The translations under genes and the position numbers were made by a program. The notes under the pieces are model-generated. The model saw nothing but the letters and a program-made list of their open reading frames with translations. It was not told the origin of the DNA and ran no database searches. Source: Pseudohongiella sp. (GTDB taxonomy: Bacteria; Pseudomonadota; Gammaproteobacteria; Pseudomonadales; Pseudohongiellaceae). Taken from it: a stretch of 64,000 bases of DNA. Positions 2,626-13,085 of this stretch are shown here, piece after piece (position 1 is the stretch's first letter; each line of letters starts with the position of its first letter). Location: positions 62,001 to 126,000 of the forward strand of contig JAUYSM010000021.1 in NCBI GenBank assembly GCA_030696315.1. Direction: 5' to 3'.

Positions 2626-2680
2626 CCGGGGACGGAGGCATGCCTGGATAGTTTGGGGACGGAGGCATGCCTCCGTCCCC
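2626..2680. repeat. REP-like 55-bp repeat, copy 1
   Basis: Identical to 3399-3453. It consists of a half-palindrome GGGGACGGAGGCATGCC, a spacer TGGATAGTTT, and a perfect 26-bp palindrome at 2655-2680 (arm GGGGACGGAGGCA). It starts 13 bp after the stop of the antitoxin gene, so the transcript would end in a strong hairpin. The architecture resembles REP elements moved by RAYT transposases; no such transposase is in the window. Confidence 0.85.
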
Positions 2681-2693
2681 AATCAGGTCATTC

Positions 2694-3017
2694 TCACCGC
2701 AATGCGCATAATGCCACGTCTGGCGCTTTATCCAATATTTTTAGCAGGGCTTTGGCGGCACCCGTTGGCGAACGTTTACCTTGCTCCCAATTACGTATCG
2801 TCTCCACTGATACATCAATGGTTTTTGAGAATTCCGACTGACTCAAGCCCAGACGTCGTCTAATTCTCAATACATGTTTACCTGCATCCTTTGCTGCATC
2901 CTCATCATCAGCCTTTACTTGAAACTCAATATCCTGCTCGCTGGTACTGTCCAGTTTTGCGAGATCTGCTTGGCCTTTGAGCACTGAGGAATTAATGACT
3001 ACTCGTTGAGTTTTCAT
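2694..3017 (-). CDS. Xre-type helix-turn-helix antitoxin partnering BrnT
   Basis: A 107-residue protein starting at MKTQRVVINS. This start has GGGAG ten bases upstream; the longer reading frame to 3218 lies antisense to codons of the toxin gene frame and is unlikely. The C-terminal half is a Cro/C1-type HTH (LRIRRRLGLSQSEFSKTIDV, then VETIRNWEQGKRSPTG). The toxin gene precedes it and overlaps by 26 bp. HTH antitoxins of this kind bind the operon promoter and neutralise the toxin. Classical BrnA is a ribbon-helix-helix protein, so the pairing with an HTH protein is a variant. Confidence 0.8.
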   Translation of the reverse strand: MKTQRVVINSSVLKGQADLAKLDSTSEQDIEFQVKADDEDAAKDAGKHVLRIRRRLGLSQSEFSKTIDVSVETIRNWEQGKRSPTGAAKALLKILDKAPDVALCALR

Positions 3018-3291
3018 AAACAACACACTCCCGTTGACTCGCTCTTCTAGCTGAAATAATTCTGATAACCCTTCCCCTATGGGTGTACACAACCAGAAAG
3101 ACATGTTTTTGAATCCTTCCCACTGTGATGTATCTTTCTTCTCCGTATTCAAATCGTAAGTCAGGGGATACACACCTGAATGGATCAAAGAAAACTTGAG
3201 CCGCATACATGAAATCAAAGCCCCGCTCTTCTAAACAGCGTTTGCTTTTTGCAATATCCCATTCAAACAAGTGATTCGGATTGTAGTTCAT
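2992..3291 (-). CDS. brnT: BrnT family ribonuclease toxin
   Basis: A 99-residue protein with the BrnT signature: FEWDIAKSKRCLEERGFDFMYAA-VFFDP near the start and VVYTHRGRVIRIISARRAS near the end. BrnT is a RelE-fold RNase that inhibits translation. The start at 3291 is chosen because GGAG lies seven bases upstream; the frame extends to 3327 without a better site. It is first in a two-gene operon with the HTH antitoxin and is enclosed by two identical 55-bp repeats. Confidence 0.85.
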   Translation of the reverse strand: MNYNPNHLFEWDIAKSKRCLEERGFDFMYAAQVFFDPFRCVSPDLRFEYGEERYITVGRIQKHVFLVVYTHRGRVIRIISARRASQRECVVYENSTSSH

Positions 3292-3398
3292 TGGCCTACT
3301 CCATGGCAATAACTGAACTGACTCCAAGGTTCATAGCATGGTTTTGGTGTGGATGCTTTTGTAATTATTAATAACAGGTGTGTGTGGCTAAGGGGCAT

Positions 3399-3453
3399 CC
3401 GGGGACGGAGGCATGCCTGGATAGTTTGGGGACGGAGGCATGCCTCCGTCCCC
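3399..3453. repeat. REP-like 55-bp repeat, copy 2
   Basis: Base-for-base the same 55 bp as 2626-2680, with the perfect 26-bp palindrome at 3428-3453. It begins seven bases after the stop codon of the gene ending at 3461. A short AAGGGGCA stretch precedes both copies at slightly different spacing. Together the copies bracket the BrnT operon. Confidence 0.85.
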
Positions 3454-4168: not shown

Positions 4169-4221
4169 GTGTGATCCTGTGTTTTTCATCCAAATAAATT
4201 GGGAAATTGCTACAGCGTTAA

Positions 4222-5463
4222 CTATACACCCCACAACGTCGACAGTGGCGCTGCCCATAATCTGTCGCCCAGTGGCAATGTCTCTGTCCCGTCGTAGAGC
4301 AGCACGCCCATCTTGAACTGCTTTTCTGCCTGGTTTGCCAACTTCTTCAGACCACGCAAATCGATTTGCTTGACGGTCGCAGTTGCCTTTACCTCTACTG
4401 CCACCAACTGCCCAAGTGCATCTTCGATCACCAGATCAACCTCGAATTTGTCTGCGTCCCGGTAATACATCAGTCGATAGTCGCCGTCTGCTGTACTGAT
4501 ATGCTTAAGCAGCTCGGCATAAACGAACGTTTCCAGCAAGTTGCCAAAGCGCGTGCGCTCGGTATGAGCCTCATCTGCACTGATATCCAGCAATGACGCT
4601 AGCAATCCCGAATCGATGAACTGCAGTTTTGCTGTCTTTACAAGTCGCTTCAGTCGGTTGTGAGCCCAAACATCAACACGCTTAAGCAGATACATCTGCT
4701 CAAACACGCTAACATAACGTGAGGCCGTTTTGCCATCCAATCCGACCTGAGCGCCCAGCTGGCTATAGTTGCACATTTGCCCTGTTGTTTGGGCTAAAGC
4801 GCTCAGGAATCGTGGTAACTGATCCAGTTTCTCAATACCAGCCACATCGCGAACATCGCGTTGAATGAGTGCATCTATGTACTGCCGTGCCCAGATCTTA
4901 CGACGCCTCGATGCCGTCCTTGATATTGCTTCGGGATAACCACCCCGCAGCACGCGGTCCACTAACTGGCTGCCTACGGCAATCGTGCTTGTATCAAGAA
5001 TCTGTCCTGTGAATGCGCGGTCTACCCAGTTTGCTGAATTGGACTCAATCTCGCTTTGTGACAATGGCAACAACATCAAGGTTTCCATACGACCGGCTAA
5101 CGAGTCGGCGACCGTAGGCAACGTCATAAGATTCGCGGATCCTGTCAAAAGGAAACGTCCGGGGCGGCGATCTTCGTCCACACTTTTTTTGATAGCCAAC
5201 AACAATTGTGGTGCGCGTTGAATCTCGTCAATCACGGCTCTGTCCAGATTGCGAATTATTCCAGCTGGATCTTCACGCGCCGCTAACAAGCTCAGCTCAT
5301 CATCCATGGTGATATAACGCAGGCCTTGCTGTTCTGCAATCTGCTTCACGAGTGTTGTCTTTCCTGATTGCCGCGGCCCGGCAAGGAGTACGACTGGCGT
5401 ATCTGACAAAGCCTCTGCAATTCGGGGCTGGATAACGCGCGGATAAAATGATGTCATGTCCAT
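4222..5463 (-). CDS. AAA family ATPase with DUF4143 C-terminal domain
   Basis: A 413-residue protein of the AAA_14/DUF4143 family. Walker A is AGPRQSGKTTLVKQ at about residues 28-41, Walker B includes RAVIDEIQRAP, and the sensor-like LLTGSANLM follows. The C-terminal DUF4143 part includes YYRDADKFEVDLVI and VAVEVKA, which resembles a PD-(D/E)XK nuclease core (D...ExK). These proteins are common in accessory regions and their cellular role is poorly known. Four 22-bp repeats lie directly upstream. A second start two codons in (MTSFYP) is possible. Confidence 0.85.
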   Translation of the reverse strand: MDMTSFYPRVIQPRIAEALSDTPVVLLAGPRQSGKTTLVKQIAEQQGLRYITMDDELSLLAAREDPAGIIRNLDRAVIDEIQRAPQLLLAIKKSVDEDRRPGRFLLTGSANLMTLPTVADSLAGRMETLMLLPLSQSEIESNSANWVDRAFTGQILDTSTIAVGSQLVDRVLRGGYPEAISRTASRRRKIWARQYIDALIQRDVRDVAGIEKLDQLPRFLSALAQTTGQMCNYSQLGAQVGLDGKTASRYVSVFEQMYLLKRVDVWAHNRLKRLVKTAKLQFIDSGLLASLLDISADEAHTERTRFGNLLETFVYAELLKHISTADGDYRLMYYRDADKFEVDLVIEDALGQLVAVEVKATATVKQIDLRGLKKLANQAEKQFKMGVLLYDGTETLPLGDRLWAAPLSTLWGV

Positions 5464-5498
5464 GTGCTCACGATACTGTGAAACGCAAGCTCGATCAA

Positions 5499-5586
5499 CG
5501 TAAATTTCGGAATCAAAGACCGTAAATTTCGGAATCTAAGGCCGTAAATTTCGGAAAGACGGCCTGTAATTTTCGGAATTCTTTAA
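5499..5586. repeat. Four tandem 22-bp repeats upstream of the DUF4143 ATPase
   Basis: Units begin at 5499, 5521, 5543 and 5565 with an exact 22-bp period. The core is CGTAAATTTCGGAA in the first three; the fourth reads TGTAATTTTCGGAA. The tails diverge (TCAAAGAC, TCTAAGGC, AGACGGCC). The array ends the gene-free stretch 5464-5593 and lies 36 bp upstream of the ATPase start. A two-helical-turn period places each copy on the same DNA face, as expected for cooperative protein binding. Confidence 0.85.
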
Positions 5587-5593
5587 GGAATTA

Positions 5594-6097
5594 TTACTTC
5601 AATCGGGAGATTGTTCTCAGATTCAGCAGCACCGCAACGGATTCAGCCAGTAGTGCTGGCCATGCCTGCCAGATGATGTCATTGATTATCCAGGCGATAC
5701 TGGACGCAATCATGAGTATCCGCATGGAACGGTTTTCGAGATAAAACAATGCCAGCGTTGTGTTGATCACCGCAAAAGCTGGGAGCAAAGACACTGGCCC
5801 CTGCCAACTAAAGACGGTCATGGCGATAAAGGCTGCGACAAAAGAAGCGGCAATCACATGCTTGCGAGTTGGGCTGGTTAACAATCCAGACACCAAGGTT
5901 CTGGCGGCCGTGCAACTCATGGTAAGTGCAGCAGTCCAGGCGCCGAGCAGCAGGTACATAAAACCCCACAACACGGCGCCAGCGGCTGACCAGCGCCGGA
6001 ACGCGCTGGCGTCATAAAGCACATAAGAGCGCCATTCAACTGCGATGCCAACAGCACCTATGCCATAGGCCAGCCAGAATACAAGCTGATCAGGCAA
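5594..6097 (-). CDS. YgjV family inner-membrane protein
   Basis: A 167-residue integral membrane protein with about five to six hydrophobic segments (for example LVFWLAYGIGAVGIAVEW at the start and MILMIASSIAWIINDIIW-like near the end). The pattern and length fit the YgjV family, whose function is unknown. Its start overlaps the end of the methyltransferase gene by 8 bp, so it is the last gene of the sapC-methyltransferase-ygjV unit. Confidence 0.7.
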   Translation of the reverse strand: MPDQLVFWLAYGIGAVGIAVEWRSYVLYDASAFRRWSAAGAVLWGFMYLLLGAWTAALTMSCTAARTLVSGLLTSPTRKHVIAASFVAAFIAMTVFSWQGPVSLLPAFAVINTTLALFYLENRSMRILMIASSIAWIINDIIWQAWPALLAESVAVLLNLRTISRLK

Positions 6098-8627: not shown

Positions 8628-11600
8628 TTAACCCAGTTGAATGATTGGCGCTGCAGCATTGCTGAAAGAAGCAGCGCTCAGATCTACCAGACCAGTCAGT
8701 TTCACAATCAGGTCAGTACCGTTGTTGAATGATGCACCAGCACTTCGGTCCATTACAACGTAGGTATTGCCATCTGTGAACTGGAACCAGCTGATTGCGC
8801 CGTTCACGCTGCCGTCACCAGCAGCTGCCAAGTTAGCGTAATCCTGGAACACTGCAGTGCTGCCAAGTGTCAGCTTGGTGCGTGCAAATGTTTCTGCGCC
8901 TAGGTTAGCAAACTCGATCTTGTCGCCAGTTGATGCGTCAGTGATCGTGCTGTACACGTTAACGTTAGCGCCTGCAGTACCAATTACAAAGGTATCTGAA
9001 CCAGCACCACCAGTCAGTTGTGTCAGCTGGTCATTGGTAACCAAACGGTCATTACCAGCGCCACCATTCAACACATCAGCTTTTGCAACAACAGTAGAAG
9101 CTTCCAGTGTATCGTTGCCAGAACCACCAGTGATGGTTGAAACAACAGTACCTGCCGCTTTAACAGTCAACGCACCGGTCATTGCAGAACCGTTGATTGT
9201 TGCCAGAGCCACGTTACCAGTGTTAGTCAGTGTCAAACCACCGTTACCTGACAAAGTTACTGATGTTGCTTTAGTAGCAACCAGAGTAGCTGTGTGCACT
9301 GCATCAAATGCAGTGGCAGAGTCAGTTGAAGTGATGTTGATTGTCTCAACGTTTGCAGCAGTGATAGTACCGAATGCTGTTGTTGCCGCATTGGTCAGCA
9401 CTACGTTCAACACATCAGCTGTACCAGTTGCAGCATCTTTGATCTGAACAGTCTGTGCAACCGCAGCAGCGTTCAAAGTCAGGGTGCCACCAGAAGCCAG
9501 CTTGTCGATAGTCAGTGTGCCGCTACCAATTACCTTGGAGTATCCACCCAAGGCTTCAACGTCAACTGTTGCACCAGCGCCGCCTGTCAGTGATACCACT
9601 TCAAAGCCGGTCACTTTGCCAGCAAATGCAGCAGAGTCATCGGCTGTTGCAGCATCAGCAGCAACCATGGTCAGTGTGTCGTCGCCGTCACCACCAGAGA
9701 TCGCGCCAGTGACTGCAGTAGTACCTGCAGCCAGTGTCAGCACGTCGTTGCCAGCACCCAAGGAAATTGCCTTGCTTGGAGCAACAGTGGTCAGTGTCAC
9801 AGTATCAACGCCGCTGCTACCGGTGTAGGTTGCTTTGGTGCCGTCAATAGATGCAGTGATTGCGCCAGACGTGCCGCTTGCATTCACACTGGTCAGTGTT
9901 GTTGCTTCGCCAGCAGCCAGTTTCAGGCCAGCTGTACCAGTAACAGTCACAGTCTTCAGTGCACCCAGTGCGCCGCCAGATATGTCCAGCACCTTGTCAC
10001 CAGCAACTGACAATGTTTCAACACCGCCTGCTGTCAAAGTGAAGGTTGAGTTGTTTGCAGTCGCGTTCACATTCAGAGTCTTGTACGTACCACCGAGGTT
10101 CACGTTGCCGTCAACCTTGTTCAGGTTCAGGGCCAGGGTGGTTGCCTTGGTGTTGGTGACAGTGAATGAACCTTTGCCAGCATTGGTCAGAGACAACGAT
10201 GTCAACGCATCTGATGTTACTGCGCCGTTAGCTGAATAACCGCTTACAGTTACAGTTGCAACGGTATCAGTTGCGCCGCCGTCAGTGATTGTGACGTTGC
10301 CGTTAACAACACCCGCGTTACCTGCGACAGCAGCAGATGCTGTTGCACCCGTAGTAGTCACAGTCTGTGACGCAGCGCCACCAGCAATAACCAGAGCTGC
10401 TGGGCCAGTCACGGCAGTGTTATGAGTGAATGACACTTTGTCTGCTGCAGCTGCGCCAGAAGCGTAAGTTGCAGTGTAAGAACCAGTATACGTACCCAGT
10501 GTTGAACTACCCTGTGTTGCGCCAGTAGTCAGGTTTGCAAACGCAGCAGCAACTTGAGCAGCAGTCATGGCAGCAGTTGCTGTGAAGGTCAAACCACCTA
10601 CAGTAGCAGTCGCAGCAGCAGCCAGTGCAGTGAAGGTAACCTGGGTTACTTCAGTAGCAGCAACAACAGCAGCCTTAGTTGCAGCAGCAGTTGCAGCAGC
10701 AGTCTGTGTTACTGACACAGTTGTTGCTTTGTTGCCGTCTACAGTGATTGCACCAACTGTGTTGGTTACGTTGATACCGTTAGTGCTGTTTACGGTTACA
10801 TCAATTGATGAGCCGCCAGTCACTTTTACAGCACCACCAGCGATCGCTGCAGTACCAGCCAAGTTCTGAACAACTGTAACTGCACCCGTTGCCGCAGTAG
10901 TCTGACCTACGTTCACAGCACCAGTGCCATCAGAAGTTGTTGTCAGGCTGACAGAAGAACCACCATCGATCGTGGTTGTTGCAGCACCCTGGTCTGTATC
11001 AACAACAACGATTGCGCCTTTTGAACCAGACAGCGTTACGCCGTTATCAACTACACCAGCGCCTTTTGAGGCTGTTACAGTTTGTGATGCACCGCCAGTC
11101 ACTTTTACCAGACCGCCGCTGCTAGCAGTAACAACTGCCTGAGCATCGCTTGCTGTCAAGGTGACTGTGCCTGTTGCATTGGTCACGTTCACTGCAGTCA
11201 GGCCAGTGATGTTTGAACCAGTGGTATCCAGAGTTACTGTACCAACAGATGCCAGATTCAGTGTTTCAACGTTCTTGATTGTCAGACCACCTGGCAGAGC
11301 TGAACCACCGCCCGCAGCCACGTCGTTGATGTTCAGAGTGTCTTTACCTGCACCACCGTCGATGTTGTCCAGACCAGTCAGGGTTGCAGTGCCGCCCAGT
11401 TGACCGTTGATCACGTCATCACCAGCACCACCAACAACAGTATCAACTGCTGCAGTCAGGGCCAGAGTTTTTGGATCGTAGAACGCAGGCAGCGGAGCAG
11501 CAGCAGCGACATCTGCATCAGCCTGAGTGCTCAGACCGTTTACAGTAGTGACGCGTGCATTCGCAGCAGTGCTGGAAGCAGCAGCGCTGGTGTTGTCTGA

Positions 11601-13085
11601 AGTAGATGCAGTTGCAGCAGCAGCAGCAACCAGTGCAGCAGCAGAAGTTACGGCGGCAGCAGCATCAGCAGCAGCTGTTGTAGCAGCAGCTTTAGCAGCG
11701 GCAGCAGCAGTCACGTAGGCTTCAGCAGTTACTTTGGATGTGACAGCAGCCTTGGCAGTTGCAGCAGCAGTTGCAGCAGTCTGAGCAGCAGTCAATGAAG
11801 CAGCGGCTTTTGCATCAGCTGCATCAAATGCAGTTTTAGCAGTGTTGAATGCAGAAACAGCAGCAGCTTCAGCGACAGCAGCAGCGGCAGCAGTGCCAGT
11901 GCCAGCGGCAGCAGTTACAGCAGCAGTGGCAGCAGCAACAGAAGCAGCGGCAGTAACATCGTCAGTTGCCAGCTTGCTAGCAGCAGCGGCAGCAGAAGCA
12001 GCGTTAGCAGCAGTTACAGCAGTTGCAGCGGCAGCTTTAGCAGCATTGGATGCGGCAAATGATGCAGTGATTGCAGCAGACAGTGTTGTGGCAGCAGTCG
12101 CAGCAGCAGCATCATCAGCAGCGGCAGCAGAAGCGGCAGCAGCAGCGGTTGCAGCAGCAGCAGCAGTTGTTGTTACATTGGTTGCAGCAGTTGCAGCGTT
12201 AAATTCAGCAATGGTCTTCTGTGCGCTGGCAGTGTTCACATCAGCAGTGATACCAGAAGCGATTGCAGTTGCCAGATTGGCAGTTGCAGTCACAACAGCC
12301 GCATCAGCAGTAGCTTTTGCAGTCACAGCGGCAGCTGCAGCGGCAGCAGCAGTAGTTGAAGCAGTTGCCAGAGCAGCAGCGTCAGTCAGTGCAGCTTTGG
12401 TTTCGGCAGCAGTTTGTGCAGCTTGAGCAGCAGTTACAGCAGCATCAGCTGTTGTAGCAGCAGTCAGTGCAGCTTGTGCATCGGCAACTGCAGTTGCAGC
12501 AGCAGCGTTCGCAGTTACAGCAGCAGCGATCGCAGCATTTTCTGCAGCTTGCTCAGCTGATGGGCCACCTTGAACTTGTTTAGCAGCTTCAACAGAAGCC
12601 GCAGTCTGATCAACGTTTTCAATAACCGCTTGACGCTCAGCCAATGTGCCGTCTTTCTGCAGAGTTACTGTGTGATAGGTAGCAACGTCAATCTGGTTTA
12701 CGAATGCACCTTTTGCATTAGCCCACGCAGGATTGTTGGTTGCTTGCAATTCTTTAACAGCTGACAGGATCAGCTCGGCGCGACCAGCACCACCATTCAG
12801 GTCAGCTACCAGTGTGTCGATTGCCCACTGACGGTCTGTAGCTGTTACACGGCCTTCCAGAATGTTGTCAACAACACGAGTTGCAAACTCAACATTGGTC
12901 AGGAAAGAGGGGTACGCAGCCATGAATGGCGCTGAACTCTGGATTGAAAGTGCAACAGCTGCCAGATTTGGGTTTGAGTTATATGTGTTTGCAAGAGTAG
13001 AGAGCAGAGTTGTACCGGGGGCGGCTTGGTATATACCTACCACCAGTGCAATCAGATCCTTACGTACTTCAGAGGTTATCGCCAT
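8628..13085 (-). CDS. Ala/Thr-rich RTX surface-layer-like protein, type I secretion substrate
   Basis: 1485 residues with no Sec signal peptide. Residues ~1-150 resemble a DUF4214-type N-terminus, as in Caulobacter RsaA. Residues ~170-540 are an extreme Ala-rich, largely helical segment. From ~550 come beta-strand repeats rich in V, T, G and N. Calcium-binding RTX nonapeptides occur at ~552 (GGAGDDVIN), ~575 (GGAGKDTLN), ~1110 (GAGNDVLTL, GGDGDDTLT) and ~1322-1365 (GGSGNDTLE, GGAGNDRLV, GGAGSDTFV). The last ~100 residues, ending SAAPIIQLG-like, fit a C-terminal type I export signal. AAGGAG precedes the start. A matching exporter lies at 19.9-24.5 kb. S-layer function is inference. Confidence 0.85.
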   Translation of the reverse strand: MAITSEVRKDLIALVVGIYQAAPGTTLLSTLANTYNSNPNLAAVALSIQSSAPFMAAYPSFLTNVEFATRVVDNILEGRVTATDRQWAIDTLVADLNGGAGRAELILSAVKELQATNNPAWANAKGAFVNQIDVATYHTVTLQKDGTLAERQAVIENVDQTAASVEAAKQVQGGPSAEQAAENAAIAAAVTANAAAATAVADAQAALTAATTADAAVTAAQAAQTAAETKAALTDAAALATASTTAAAAAAAAVTAKATADAAVVTATANLATAIASGITADVNTASAQKTIAEFNAATAATNVTTTAAAAATAAAAASAAAADDAAAATAATTLSAAITASFAASNAAKAAAATAVTAANAASAAAAASKLATDDVTAAASVAAATAAVTAAAGTGTAAAAAVAEAAAVSAFNTAKTAFDAADAKAAASLTAAQTAATAAATAKAAVTSKVTAEAYVTAAAAAKAAATTAAADAAAAVTSAAALVAAAAATASTSDNTSAAASSTAANARVTTVNGLSTQADADVAAAAPLPAFYDPKTLALTAAVDTVVGGAGDDVINGQLGGTATLTGLDNIDGGAGKDTLNINDVAAGGGSALPGGLTIKNVETLNLASVGTVTLDTTGSNITGLTAVNVTNATGTVTLTASDAQAVVTASSGGLVKVTGGASQTVTASKGAGVVDNGVTLSGSKGAIVVVDTDQGAATTTIDGGSSVSLTTTSDGTGAVNVGQTTAATGAVTVVQNLAGTAAIAGGAVKVTGGSSIDVTVNSTNGINVTNTVGAITVDGNKATTVSVTQTAAATAAATKAAVVAATEVTQVTFTALAAAATATVGGLTFTATAAMTAAQVAAAFANLTTGATQGSSTLGTYTGSYTATYASGAAAADKVSFTHNTAVTGPAALVIAGGAASQTVTTTGATASAAVAGNAGVVNGNVTITDGGATDTVATVTVSGYSANGAVTSDALTSLSLTNAGKGSFTVTNTKATTLALNLNKVDGNVNLGGTYKTLNVNATANNSTFTLTAGGVETLSVAGDKVLDISGGALGALKTVTVTGTAGLKLAAGEATTLTSVNASGTSGAITASIDGTKATYTGSSGVDTVTLTTVAPSKAISLGAGNDVLTLAAGTTAVTGAISGGDGDDTLTMVAADAATADDSAAFAGKVTGFEVVSLTGGAGATVDVEALGGYSKVIGSGTLTIDKLASGGTLTLNAAAVAQTVQIKDAATGTADVLNVVLTNAATTAFGTITAANVETINITSTDSATAFDAVHTATLVATKATSVTLSGNGGLTLTNTGNVALATINGSAMTGALTVKAAGTVVSTITGGSGNDTLEASTVVAKADVLNGGAGNDRLVTNDQLTQLTGGAGSDTFVIGTAGANVNVYSTITDASTGDKIEFANLGAETFARTKLTLGSTAVFQDYANLAAAGDGSVNGAISWFQFTDGNTYVVMDRSAGASFNNGTDLIVKLTGLVDLSAASFSNAAAPIIQLG
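11465..12580. repeat. Low-complexity Ala-coding stretch (GCA/GCT-rich) in the RTX gene
   Basis: On the plus strand this reads as an almost continuous series of CAG/AGC/TGC triplets. On the coding strand GCA and GCT alanine codons alternate with ACT, GTT, GAT and AAA. There is no single fixed period. The protein segment has Ala at more than half of positions, interrupted by T, V, K, D and S. Confidence 0.75.

Follow-up and report, generated by a model that had tools for sequence, protein, structure and literature searches.

Plasmid iterons are tandem direct repeats of about 22 bp beside the gene of their binder, the Rep initiator; they are read by two domains of this protein and are associated with its autoregulation. 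In a defence promoter, three direct repeats are bound by the adjacently encoded protein RptR, with repression as the outcome (PMC12255303). The defence candidate PDC-S01 is described as joining an ATPase to a domain of the PD-(D/E)-X-K superfamily, and among the defences of prokaryotes it was ranked fourth by frequency (PMC12988326); most candidates of this kind, PDC-S01 included, await validation (PMC12988326). An upstream array, self-recognition and regulation of PDC-S01 are absent from the bearing sections of that paper (PMC12988326). No mechanism for DUF4143, COG1373 or PDC-S01 was given in the bearing open-access literature that we searched. Nor was a report of arrays such as those described here found in the open-access literature searched, which left out preprints and most subscription journals and is no proof of absence.

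The locus analyzed here, an array of 22-bp repeats upstream of a gene whose ATPase product matches the PDC-S01 profile PDLC04790 of the "guilt-by-embedding" set, resembles the plasmid systems in that the repeats lie by the gene of their (here proposed) binder, and in a proposed two-part reading and autoregulation. It differs from them in the fold of the protein, which is built of AAA+, winged helix-turn-helix (wHTH) and PD-(D/E)XK parts. RptR is a small separate regulator of 9-bp repeats with a 6-bp palindrome, whereas the reader proposed here is the effector itself. Antiphage activity of this ATPase is inferred from the profile match only.

The 22-bp array and its position

The locus lies in a 64,000-nucleotide stretch of Pseudohongiella sp. 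DNA, the whole of which was analyzed and is called here the window. Tandem Repeats Finder located an array of period 22 and 3.7 copies at 5499-5578. The core GTAAATTTCGGAA is exact at 5500, 5522 and 5544 and has one mismatch at 5566, and no further site with up to two mismatches was found in the window beyond these four array cores. The array is placed 36-115 bp upstream of the minus-strand ATPase gene, beginning 36 bp from the ATG at 5463, and occupies most of the 130-bp gap between this start and the Imp-YgjV gene (5594-6097). In the gene-ward reading of the minus strand the array is TTCCGAAATTTACG, and a single unit corresponds to ATTCCGAAATTTACG plus a spacer of about 7 bp. Three cores are exact and the most upstream one is degenerate, with a spacing of exactly 22 bp. 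The repeats, hereafter iterons, are as follows:

5564..5579, minus strand: iteron 1, the most upstream and degenerate, ATTCCGAAAATTACAG
5542..5557, minus strand: iteron 2, TTTCCGAAATTTACGG
5520..5535, minus strand: iteron 3, ATTCCGAAATTTACGG
5498..5513, minus strand: iteron 4, nearest the gene, ATTCCGAAATTTACGT

Four core matches were reached by 3 of 100 shuffles, so the core count alone is a weak test. The tandem arrangement is a strong one: the self-match score was 38 at lag 22, whereas none of 30 shuffles of that upstream region scored above 10. Across the genome (3.96 Mb in 117 contigs) there are six occurrences of the 13-mer of the array with at most one mismatch, namely the four array copies and two scattered single sites, and the reversed control pattern occurs three times. 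The array is private to the ATPase locus within its genome, and a dispersed repeat was ruled out on the basis of this genome-wide count. A known RNA element was also ruled out, since no Rfam family reached its gathering score anywhere in the window.

The original prediction, made from the sequence alone, was that of an exact 22-bp tandem array at 5499-5586, upstream of a DUF4143 ATPase gene. The array and its place held, with an exact period and cores at 5499-5578; "exact" held only in part, as it applies to the period and not to the fourth copy, and the proposed end failed, since the array stops at 5578. A 235-residue neighbour, named as a possible binder, was not found, the neighbouring ORFs being of 167 and 265 aa. 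A spread of the repeats over the genome would have refuted the prediction and was not met, the repeat being private to the locus in its genome. The statement that DUF4143 proteins lack an established function needs an update, because the protein matches the phage-defence candidate PDC-S01.

The ATPase and its predicted domains

Both Pfam domains of the 413-aa product, DUF4143 (E-value 1.1e-44) and AAA_14 (1.4e-26), exceed their cut-offs (152.4 and 93.5 bits versus 28.1 and 27, respectively), and the PADLOC profile PDLC04790 (PDC-S01) covers residues 2-412 of 413 with an E-value of 1.4e-169. An AlphaFold2 model based on 55 sequences (mean pLDDT 90.8) has three parts, namely an ATPase domain, a winged helix and an alpha/beta domain at the C-terminus; the label wHTH for residues 213-263 is our own reading of this model and remains a prediction. 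The features of the gene and its product are:

4222..5463, minus strand: AAA_14-DUF4143 ATPase, 413 aa, PADLOC PDC-S01 (Pfam and PADLOC)
5047..5400, minus strand: AAA_14 ATPase domain, residues 22-139 (Pfam)
4675..4827, minus strand: putative wHTH, residues 213-263 (predicted helices 213-225, 233-238 and 244-256, strand 260-263)
4729..4737, minus strand: D243-G244-K245 at the start of the recognition helix, predicted reader of iteron positions 3, 5 and 4, respectively (covariation, held-out test)
4240..4566, minus strand: predicted PD-(D/E)XK-fold domain, residues 300-408, with E311, D343, E357 and K359 (fold of residues 290-413, conservation)
4450..4467, minus strand: hairpin residues 333-338 with 337 at the turn, predicted reader of iteron positions 11-12 (strands 330-336 and 341-347, covariation)

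Residues K35, D79 and E80 are present in 126 of 128 loci, and the remaining two are gapped. In structural comparisons, residues 2-304 resembled the archaeal proteins 2QEN (VIA Z 15.7, rmsd 3.7, 255 aligned) and 2FNA (VIA Z 14.8, rmsd 4.7, 256 aligned), the latter being the best Foldseek hit (8.1e-07), as well as the NLR RPP1 (VIA Z 14.3, rmsd 5.5, 249 aligned) and Avs5 (9jap_A; VIA Z 11.4, rmsd 4.6, 243 aligned). The ATPase and winged helix part is thus similar to STAND ATPases, CED-4 among them, in fold only: their sensor repeats and effector arrangement are absent, and the winged helix here seems to read specific DNA.

The C-terminal residues 290-413, modelled alone, gave a pLDDT of 90.6 and a list of similar folds filled by nucleases and restriction enzymes from Z 9.8 downwards. 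McrBC (6hz4_M; Z 9.8, rmsd 3.2, 114 aligned) and Can2 (Z 9.5, rmsd 3.5, 123 aligned) were the closest, and Card1 and restriction enzymes were also similar. With Foldseek this domain had no match at 0.001 or less (best E-value 1.7e-3), and Pfam PDDEXK_10 remained below its cut-off in the ATPase (E-value 0.011). The would-be active-site residues are kept in nearly all of the 128 loci (E311 in 126, D343 in 127, E357 in 125 and K359 in 127). The C-terminal domain is therefore predicted by the model to have a PD-(D/E)XK fold with intact catalytic residues; nuclease activity is inferred only. It would differ from McrBC, Can2 and Card1 in the proposed hairpin that reads promoter DNA.

A PDB sequence search with the ATPase gave short P-loop matches only, and no curated NCBIfam family was above its cut-off. 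Among ten neighbouring ORFs, PADLOC found nothing but weak HTH and methyltransferase-type matches, so the ATPase gene is not in an evident defence island.

Arrays across the DUF4143 subfamily

The genome has five DUF4143 genes. In the same place, several of these and the majority of full-length congeneric relatives carry 22/23-bp arrays of their own, which differ in sequence. Relatives were then collected from named genomes spanning several phyla (80) and from viral contigs (14); all samples come from best-hit lists and are not random draws. Self-match scores of 14 or more were obtained for 49 of 93 upstream regions, for none of the 93 gene bodies and for 3 of 93 best-of-ten shuffles, and the lag was 22, 23, 44, 45 or 46 in 47 of those 49 upstream regions. 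In a same-contig control, such scores were found before 47 of 85 DUF4143 genes but before only 21 of the 528 ORFs that neighbour them, and the best lag was 22/23 or a multiple in 78 of the 85 versus 47 of the 528.

An iteron model, made by iteration and scored leave-one-out with a chain threshold of 15, was applied to 110 subfamily loci that comprised the window and relatives 41-75% identical from several phyla; locus L135 (too short) and eight distant viral loci (L178-L185) were dropped. Chains at or above the threshold, with 22/23-bp spacing and in the orientation of the gene, were present in 104 of the 110 loci, against 1 of 110 among shuffled sequences (best of five each). This bears out a check proposed with the original prediction, that similar arrays should be looked for at other DUF4143 genes. 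The opposite strand had such chains in only 5 of 110 loci, and therefore the arrays have one orientation. Gaps between iterons were of 22 bp (199) or 23 bp (76) in 275 of 280 cases, the good iterons numbered 2-10 per locus, mostly 3-4, and the end of the last one was at a median of -6 from the projected start. A good chain was not found in six of the 110 loci (L075, L093, L158, L162, L167 and L177).

A reverse search for array-like pairs in 279 genomes, made with one pattern variant and covering only arrays of that sequence, returned seven places (11 overlapping matches) and one for the reversed control. Five of the seven are at DUF4143 genes, one resembles a broken DUF4143 start (genome G064), and one is cut off, as its stretch (G280:C222) stops 60 bp past the pair. 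In G064 (L313, 1400-1560) a three-copy array precedes the seemingly broken start, which is fused into another ORF; judged by eye, the beginning of this ORF resembles the N-terminal residues of such a protein, and the similarity is lost before the Walker motif. On this by-eye reading, an array that has outlived its gene is a possibility.

Among 64 non-redundant distant DUF4143 genes, a tandem signal was seen in 18, with none in shuffles, and 46 were under the threshold. The periods of the 18 were 22-23 (8 loci), 32 (4), 59-63 (4), 25 and 29. Self-linked repeats might thus reach beyond this subfamily, which is not shown.

Some individual arrays deserve mention. Three members of another DUF4143 subfamily (L005, L025, L032) have 23-bp upstream arrays with the unrelated core ATTGCAAAGTACCGG. 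In further DUF4143 subfamilies, repeats with a lag of 32 (L028, L058, L061, L088) or of 59-63 (L047, L210, L211, L256) lie just upstream of the gene, and some of these are partly palindromic. The longest array, a chain of ten units of which eight are almost identical, belongs to an Oceanicaulis MAG (L152). Contigs classed as viral (L172-L177) encode relatives 41-73% identical to the window protein; the array is present in L172-L176 and was not found in L177.

Covariation of protein residues with iteron bases

An ATPase that binds its own iterons is expected to have contact residues that co-change with the iteron bases. From the 110 loci, the 105 with at least two good iterons were retained (five had fewer), and removal of 11 redundant ones at a limit of 90% identity left 94. 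The top pairs by corrected mutual information were residue 245 with position 4, 337 with 11, 244 with 5, 243 with 3 and 245 with 3. When only locus pairs less than 55% identical were considered (3731 of 4371; 379 protein columns), position 4 was best matched by column 245, position 5 by 244, position 3 by 243 and position 10 by 337, which ranked second for position 11. A caveat of this distant-pair test is that a few nearly invariant columns (317, 311, 123) outrank residue 245 overall.

Tree-aware co-change was scored in 128 loci on a tree made without columns 243, 244, 245 and 337 (4788 tests). The first five pairs were 243 with position 3 (p 1.7e-6), 334 with 12 (1.3e-5), 244 with 5 (4.0e-5), 245 with 4 (5.6e-5) and 337 with 11 (1.1e-4). 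Only the first of these survives Bonferroni correction for the 4788 tests, and columns 282, 297, 391 and 295 trail closely. All five fall in two predicted contact loops: in the model, residues 243-245 open the recognition helix of the winged helix, and 337 is at the turn that connects two strands of the nuclease-fold domain (330-336 and 341-347).

The association between residues and bases is close to a code. At position 4, K245 occurs with C in 56/56 cases, Q245 with A in 12/13 and V, P or I245 with T in 32/42. At position 5, H244 and R244 occur with C (37/37 and 42/44), and at position 3 D243 occurs with C (39/43). At position 11, K337 and R337 occur with G (74/75 and 19/20) and A337 with T (10/11). 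Known amino acid-base preferences (K, R or H with G on either strand, D with C, Q with A, and V, P, I or A with T) fit these pairings. Three subfamily paralogues of the genome carry three different arrays.

Held-out test of the residue-base rules

The rules were fixed in writing before new loci were examined. The first held-out set had 49 loci, of which 48 were scanned (L253 was too short) and 13 were evaluable, six of these being at least 43% identical to training; most of the set was too distant. In the 13 loci, with no identity floor, the results were mixed: K245-C4 2/2, V/I/P245-T4 4/6, H/R244-C5 5/7, not H/R244-not C5 2/6, K/R337-G11 4/6, not K/R337-not G11 5/7 and not D243-not C3 13/13. 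The rules did not carry over to relatives less than 43% identical, which lie outside the range of the frozen iteron model. It must be noted that the 43% floor was introduced after the results of this set were known.

In the second set, 28 of 41 loci were evaluable; two were excluded for being at least 90% identical to training (L294, L297) and 11 for having fewer than two good iterons, and the floor removed no locus with two good iterons. The rules held in 27/28 cases for residue 244 (H/R-C5 20/21, other-not C5 7/7; Fisher p 6.8e-6), in 26/27 for 337 (K/R-G11 23/23, other-not G11 3/4; p 3.1e-3), in 18/21 for 245 (K-C4 6/6, Q-A4 3/4, V/I/P-T4 9/11; p 2.2e-4 for K245) and in 24/28 for 243 (p 3.0e-3), where D-C3 reached only 5/8 and other-not C3 19/20. 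Among the 16 loci less than 75% identical to training, the rule for 244 held in 15, and the Fisher p values were 1.4e-3 (244), 2.5e-2 (337) and 3.6e-2 (K245).

Based on the covariation and the held-out prediction, we infer that both the winged helix and the nuclease-fold domain of the ATPase very probably bind the iterons of its own gene, although there are no binding data. The original prediction had considered the ATPase as a binder and the repeats, in their link with the DUF4143 gene, as an operator or a nucleoprotein assembly site. The latter is supported, and for the former the covariation points to the ATPase itself as the reader. The lead is in this way sharpened from a linked repeat to iterons that are, with high probability but again without binding data, read by the neighbouring ATPase.

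A probably portable gene-plus-array unit

The genomic segment that contains both elements is:

4209..5596, no strand assigned: gene-plus-array unit that five congeneric genomes lack here (comparison with L307-L311)

Those five genomes have the same neighbours without the ATPase gene. The closest relative, L307, aligns to the window through 4208 and from 5597 onwards, and between these matches it has 80 bp of different sequence. The segment (1388 bp) consists of the gene and the array and nothing else, and 18 bp separate the array from the segment's edge. The iteron is almost unchanged in relatives 57-75% identical from other phyla (Turneriella, Desulfovibrionaceae, Chlorobiaceae, Betaproteobacteria), and 172 plasmid records contain a relative less than 60% identical. 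Gene and array would travel as one small unit. Paralogues of the same genome retain different iteron sequences.

Two other regions of the window were noted. A BrnT toxin/HTH-antitoxin pair at 2646-3427 (BrnT E-value 2.8e-25) lies in a segment absent from L307, whose matches stop at 2645 and restart at 3428; a 26-bp palindrome, GGGGACGGAGGCATGCCTCCGTCCCC, is at or near both edges of this segment and occurs once in L307. At 8628-13085, an ORF of 1485 aa has a very high Ala and Thr content and contains numerous short DNA repeats.

Promoter context and proposed mechanism

Among the relatives, promoter-like hexamer pairs scoring at least 6 were found in 75 of 94 real upstream regions versus 28 of 94 shuffled ones. 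Both hexamers touch iterons in 70 of 92 cases, typically with the -35 and the -10 in successive spacers, and therefore the 22/23-bp period is about two helical turns and also the distance from -35 to -10. In plasmid p42f of Rhizobium etli CFN 42 (L312) the order, as judged by eye, is TTGACT, iteron, CATAAT, iteron. In the array of the window, a strict consensus scan gave no sigma-70 promoter and only weak pairs were obtained by our own scoring. The candidate is:

5470..5498, minus strand: weak candidate promoter TTGATC-17-TATCGT directly after iteron 4 (score 5.5)

One other pair reaches the same score as TTGATC/TATCGT.

What the computation shows is the linkage of array and gene, the spacing and orientation of the iterons, the covariation, the success of the held-out prediction and the absence of the unit in relatives. 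The explanation that we consider best overall, and likely, is that the array is a private operator of the ATPase gene, read by the ATPase. Each 22-bp unit would contain one iteron of about 14 bp, taken by one protomer of the adjacently encoded ATPase, with the start of the recognition helix (243-245) reading the 5' half and the hairpin of the PD-(D/E)XK-fold domain (residue 337 and probably 334) reading the 3' half. Protomers would be stacked every two helical turns or so in a single orientation, covering the promoter and the DNA immediately upstream of it, and would hold down the expression of their own gene. It counts against this explanation that DNA binding is not a necessary property of the wHTH in STAND-like ATPases.

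RNA polymerase should be unable to bind when the iterons are occupied, and autorepression is therefore the likeliest outcome. We favour it by a modest margin, since it is inferred from the interleaved promoter elements without expression data and the window's own promoter is weak. That phage infection releases the ATPase-nuclease to act is also an inference, and one that we consider less likely than not. Binding to the array may in addition restrain the active site, a possibility raised by the adjacency of the reading hairpin to D343.

Alternative explanations

The strongest rival is a nucleoprotein assembly site, where the array would nucleate an ATP-dependent oligomer for DNA processing by the nuclease-fold domain and transcription control would be secondary. 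In its favour are the AAA+, winged helix and nuclease-fold parts in one protein, the 2-10 good iterons per locus at 22/23 bp, the invariance of E311, D343, E357 and K359 with the reading hairpin beside the catalytic-type D343 and, by analogy, the iterons of plasmid Rep proteins and the origin boxes of AAA+ initiators. However, the array is always at the promoter of the gene, where its iterons alternate with promoter-like hexamers; that of the window occurs once in its genome, and the gene mostly stands alone on a chromosome or plasmid and is not an obvious origin. We regard this rival as less likely than not.

It is unlikely that the array is a recombination or insertion end of a mobile unit, or a homing target, recognised by the nuclease-fold domain. 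The array is indeed 18 bp from one edge of the unit missing in relatives, and the nuclease active site looks intact. Yet there are no iterons at the other edge and no evident duplication at the edges, and the promoter phasing and the retention of the array in 104 of 110 loci, at a fixed place by the start codon, also speak against it.

Control of the ATPase gene by a separate host regulator that binds the array has a precedent, as operator arrays for small separate defence-island repressors are known (RptR, PMC12255303). We consider it very improbable, because the iteron letters track the residues of the neighbouring ATPase across phyla, three paralogues in one genome have three different arrays, and there is no small regulator gene inside the 1.39-kb unit. 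Covariation by shared descent alone, with the repeats as functionless slippage products, would suit a co-inherited gene and array but is practically excluded by the tree-aware co-change, the test with pairs less than 55% identical, the held-out prediction (loci less than 75% identical to training included) and the mapping of the top columns to two predicted contact loops.

Implications of the operator model

The ATPase gene is a common but unstudied bacterial gene suspected of phage defence. Going beyond the private operator read by the ATPase, a bolder reading, no more than a possibility, is that these genes are portable self-recognising cassettes in which the nuclease-fold domain and the winged helix are sequence readers, each with a diverged lock-and-key array. 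The array would store the enzyme inactive, with its active site beside the DNA that is read; infection, by titration, nucleotide state or takeover of transcription, would derepress the gene and free an ATP-driven nuclease, and divergence of the code would stop paralogues from silencing or attacking each other.

On the operator model itself, the array would supply every gene with a built-in, sequence-predictable DNA substrate, and the residue-to-base rules make the DNA target of PDC-S01 directly testable. If the model is true, a PD-(D/E)XK-fold domain would serve specific promoter reading, and gene and operator would diversify together as a transferable unit.
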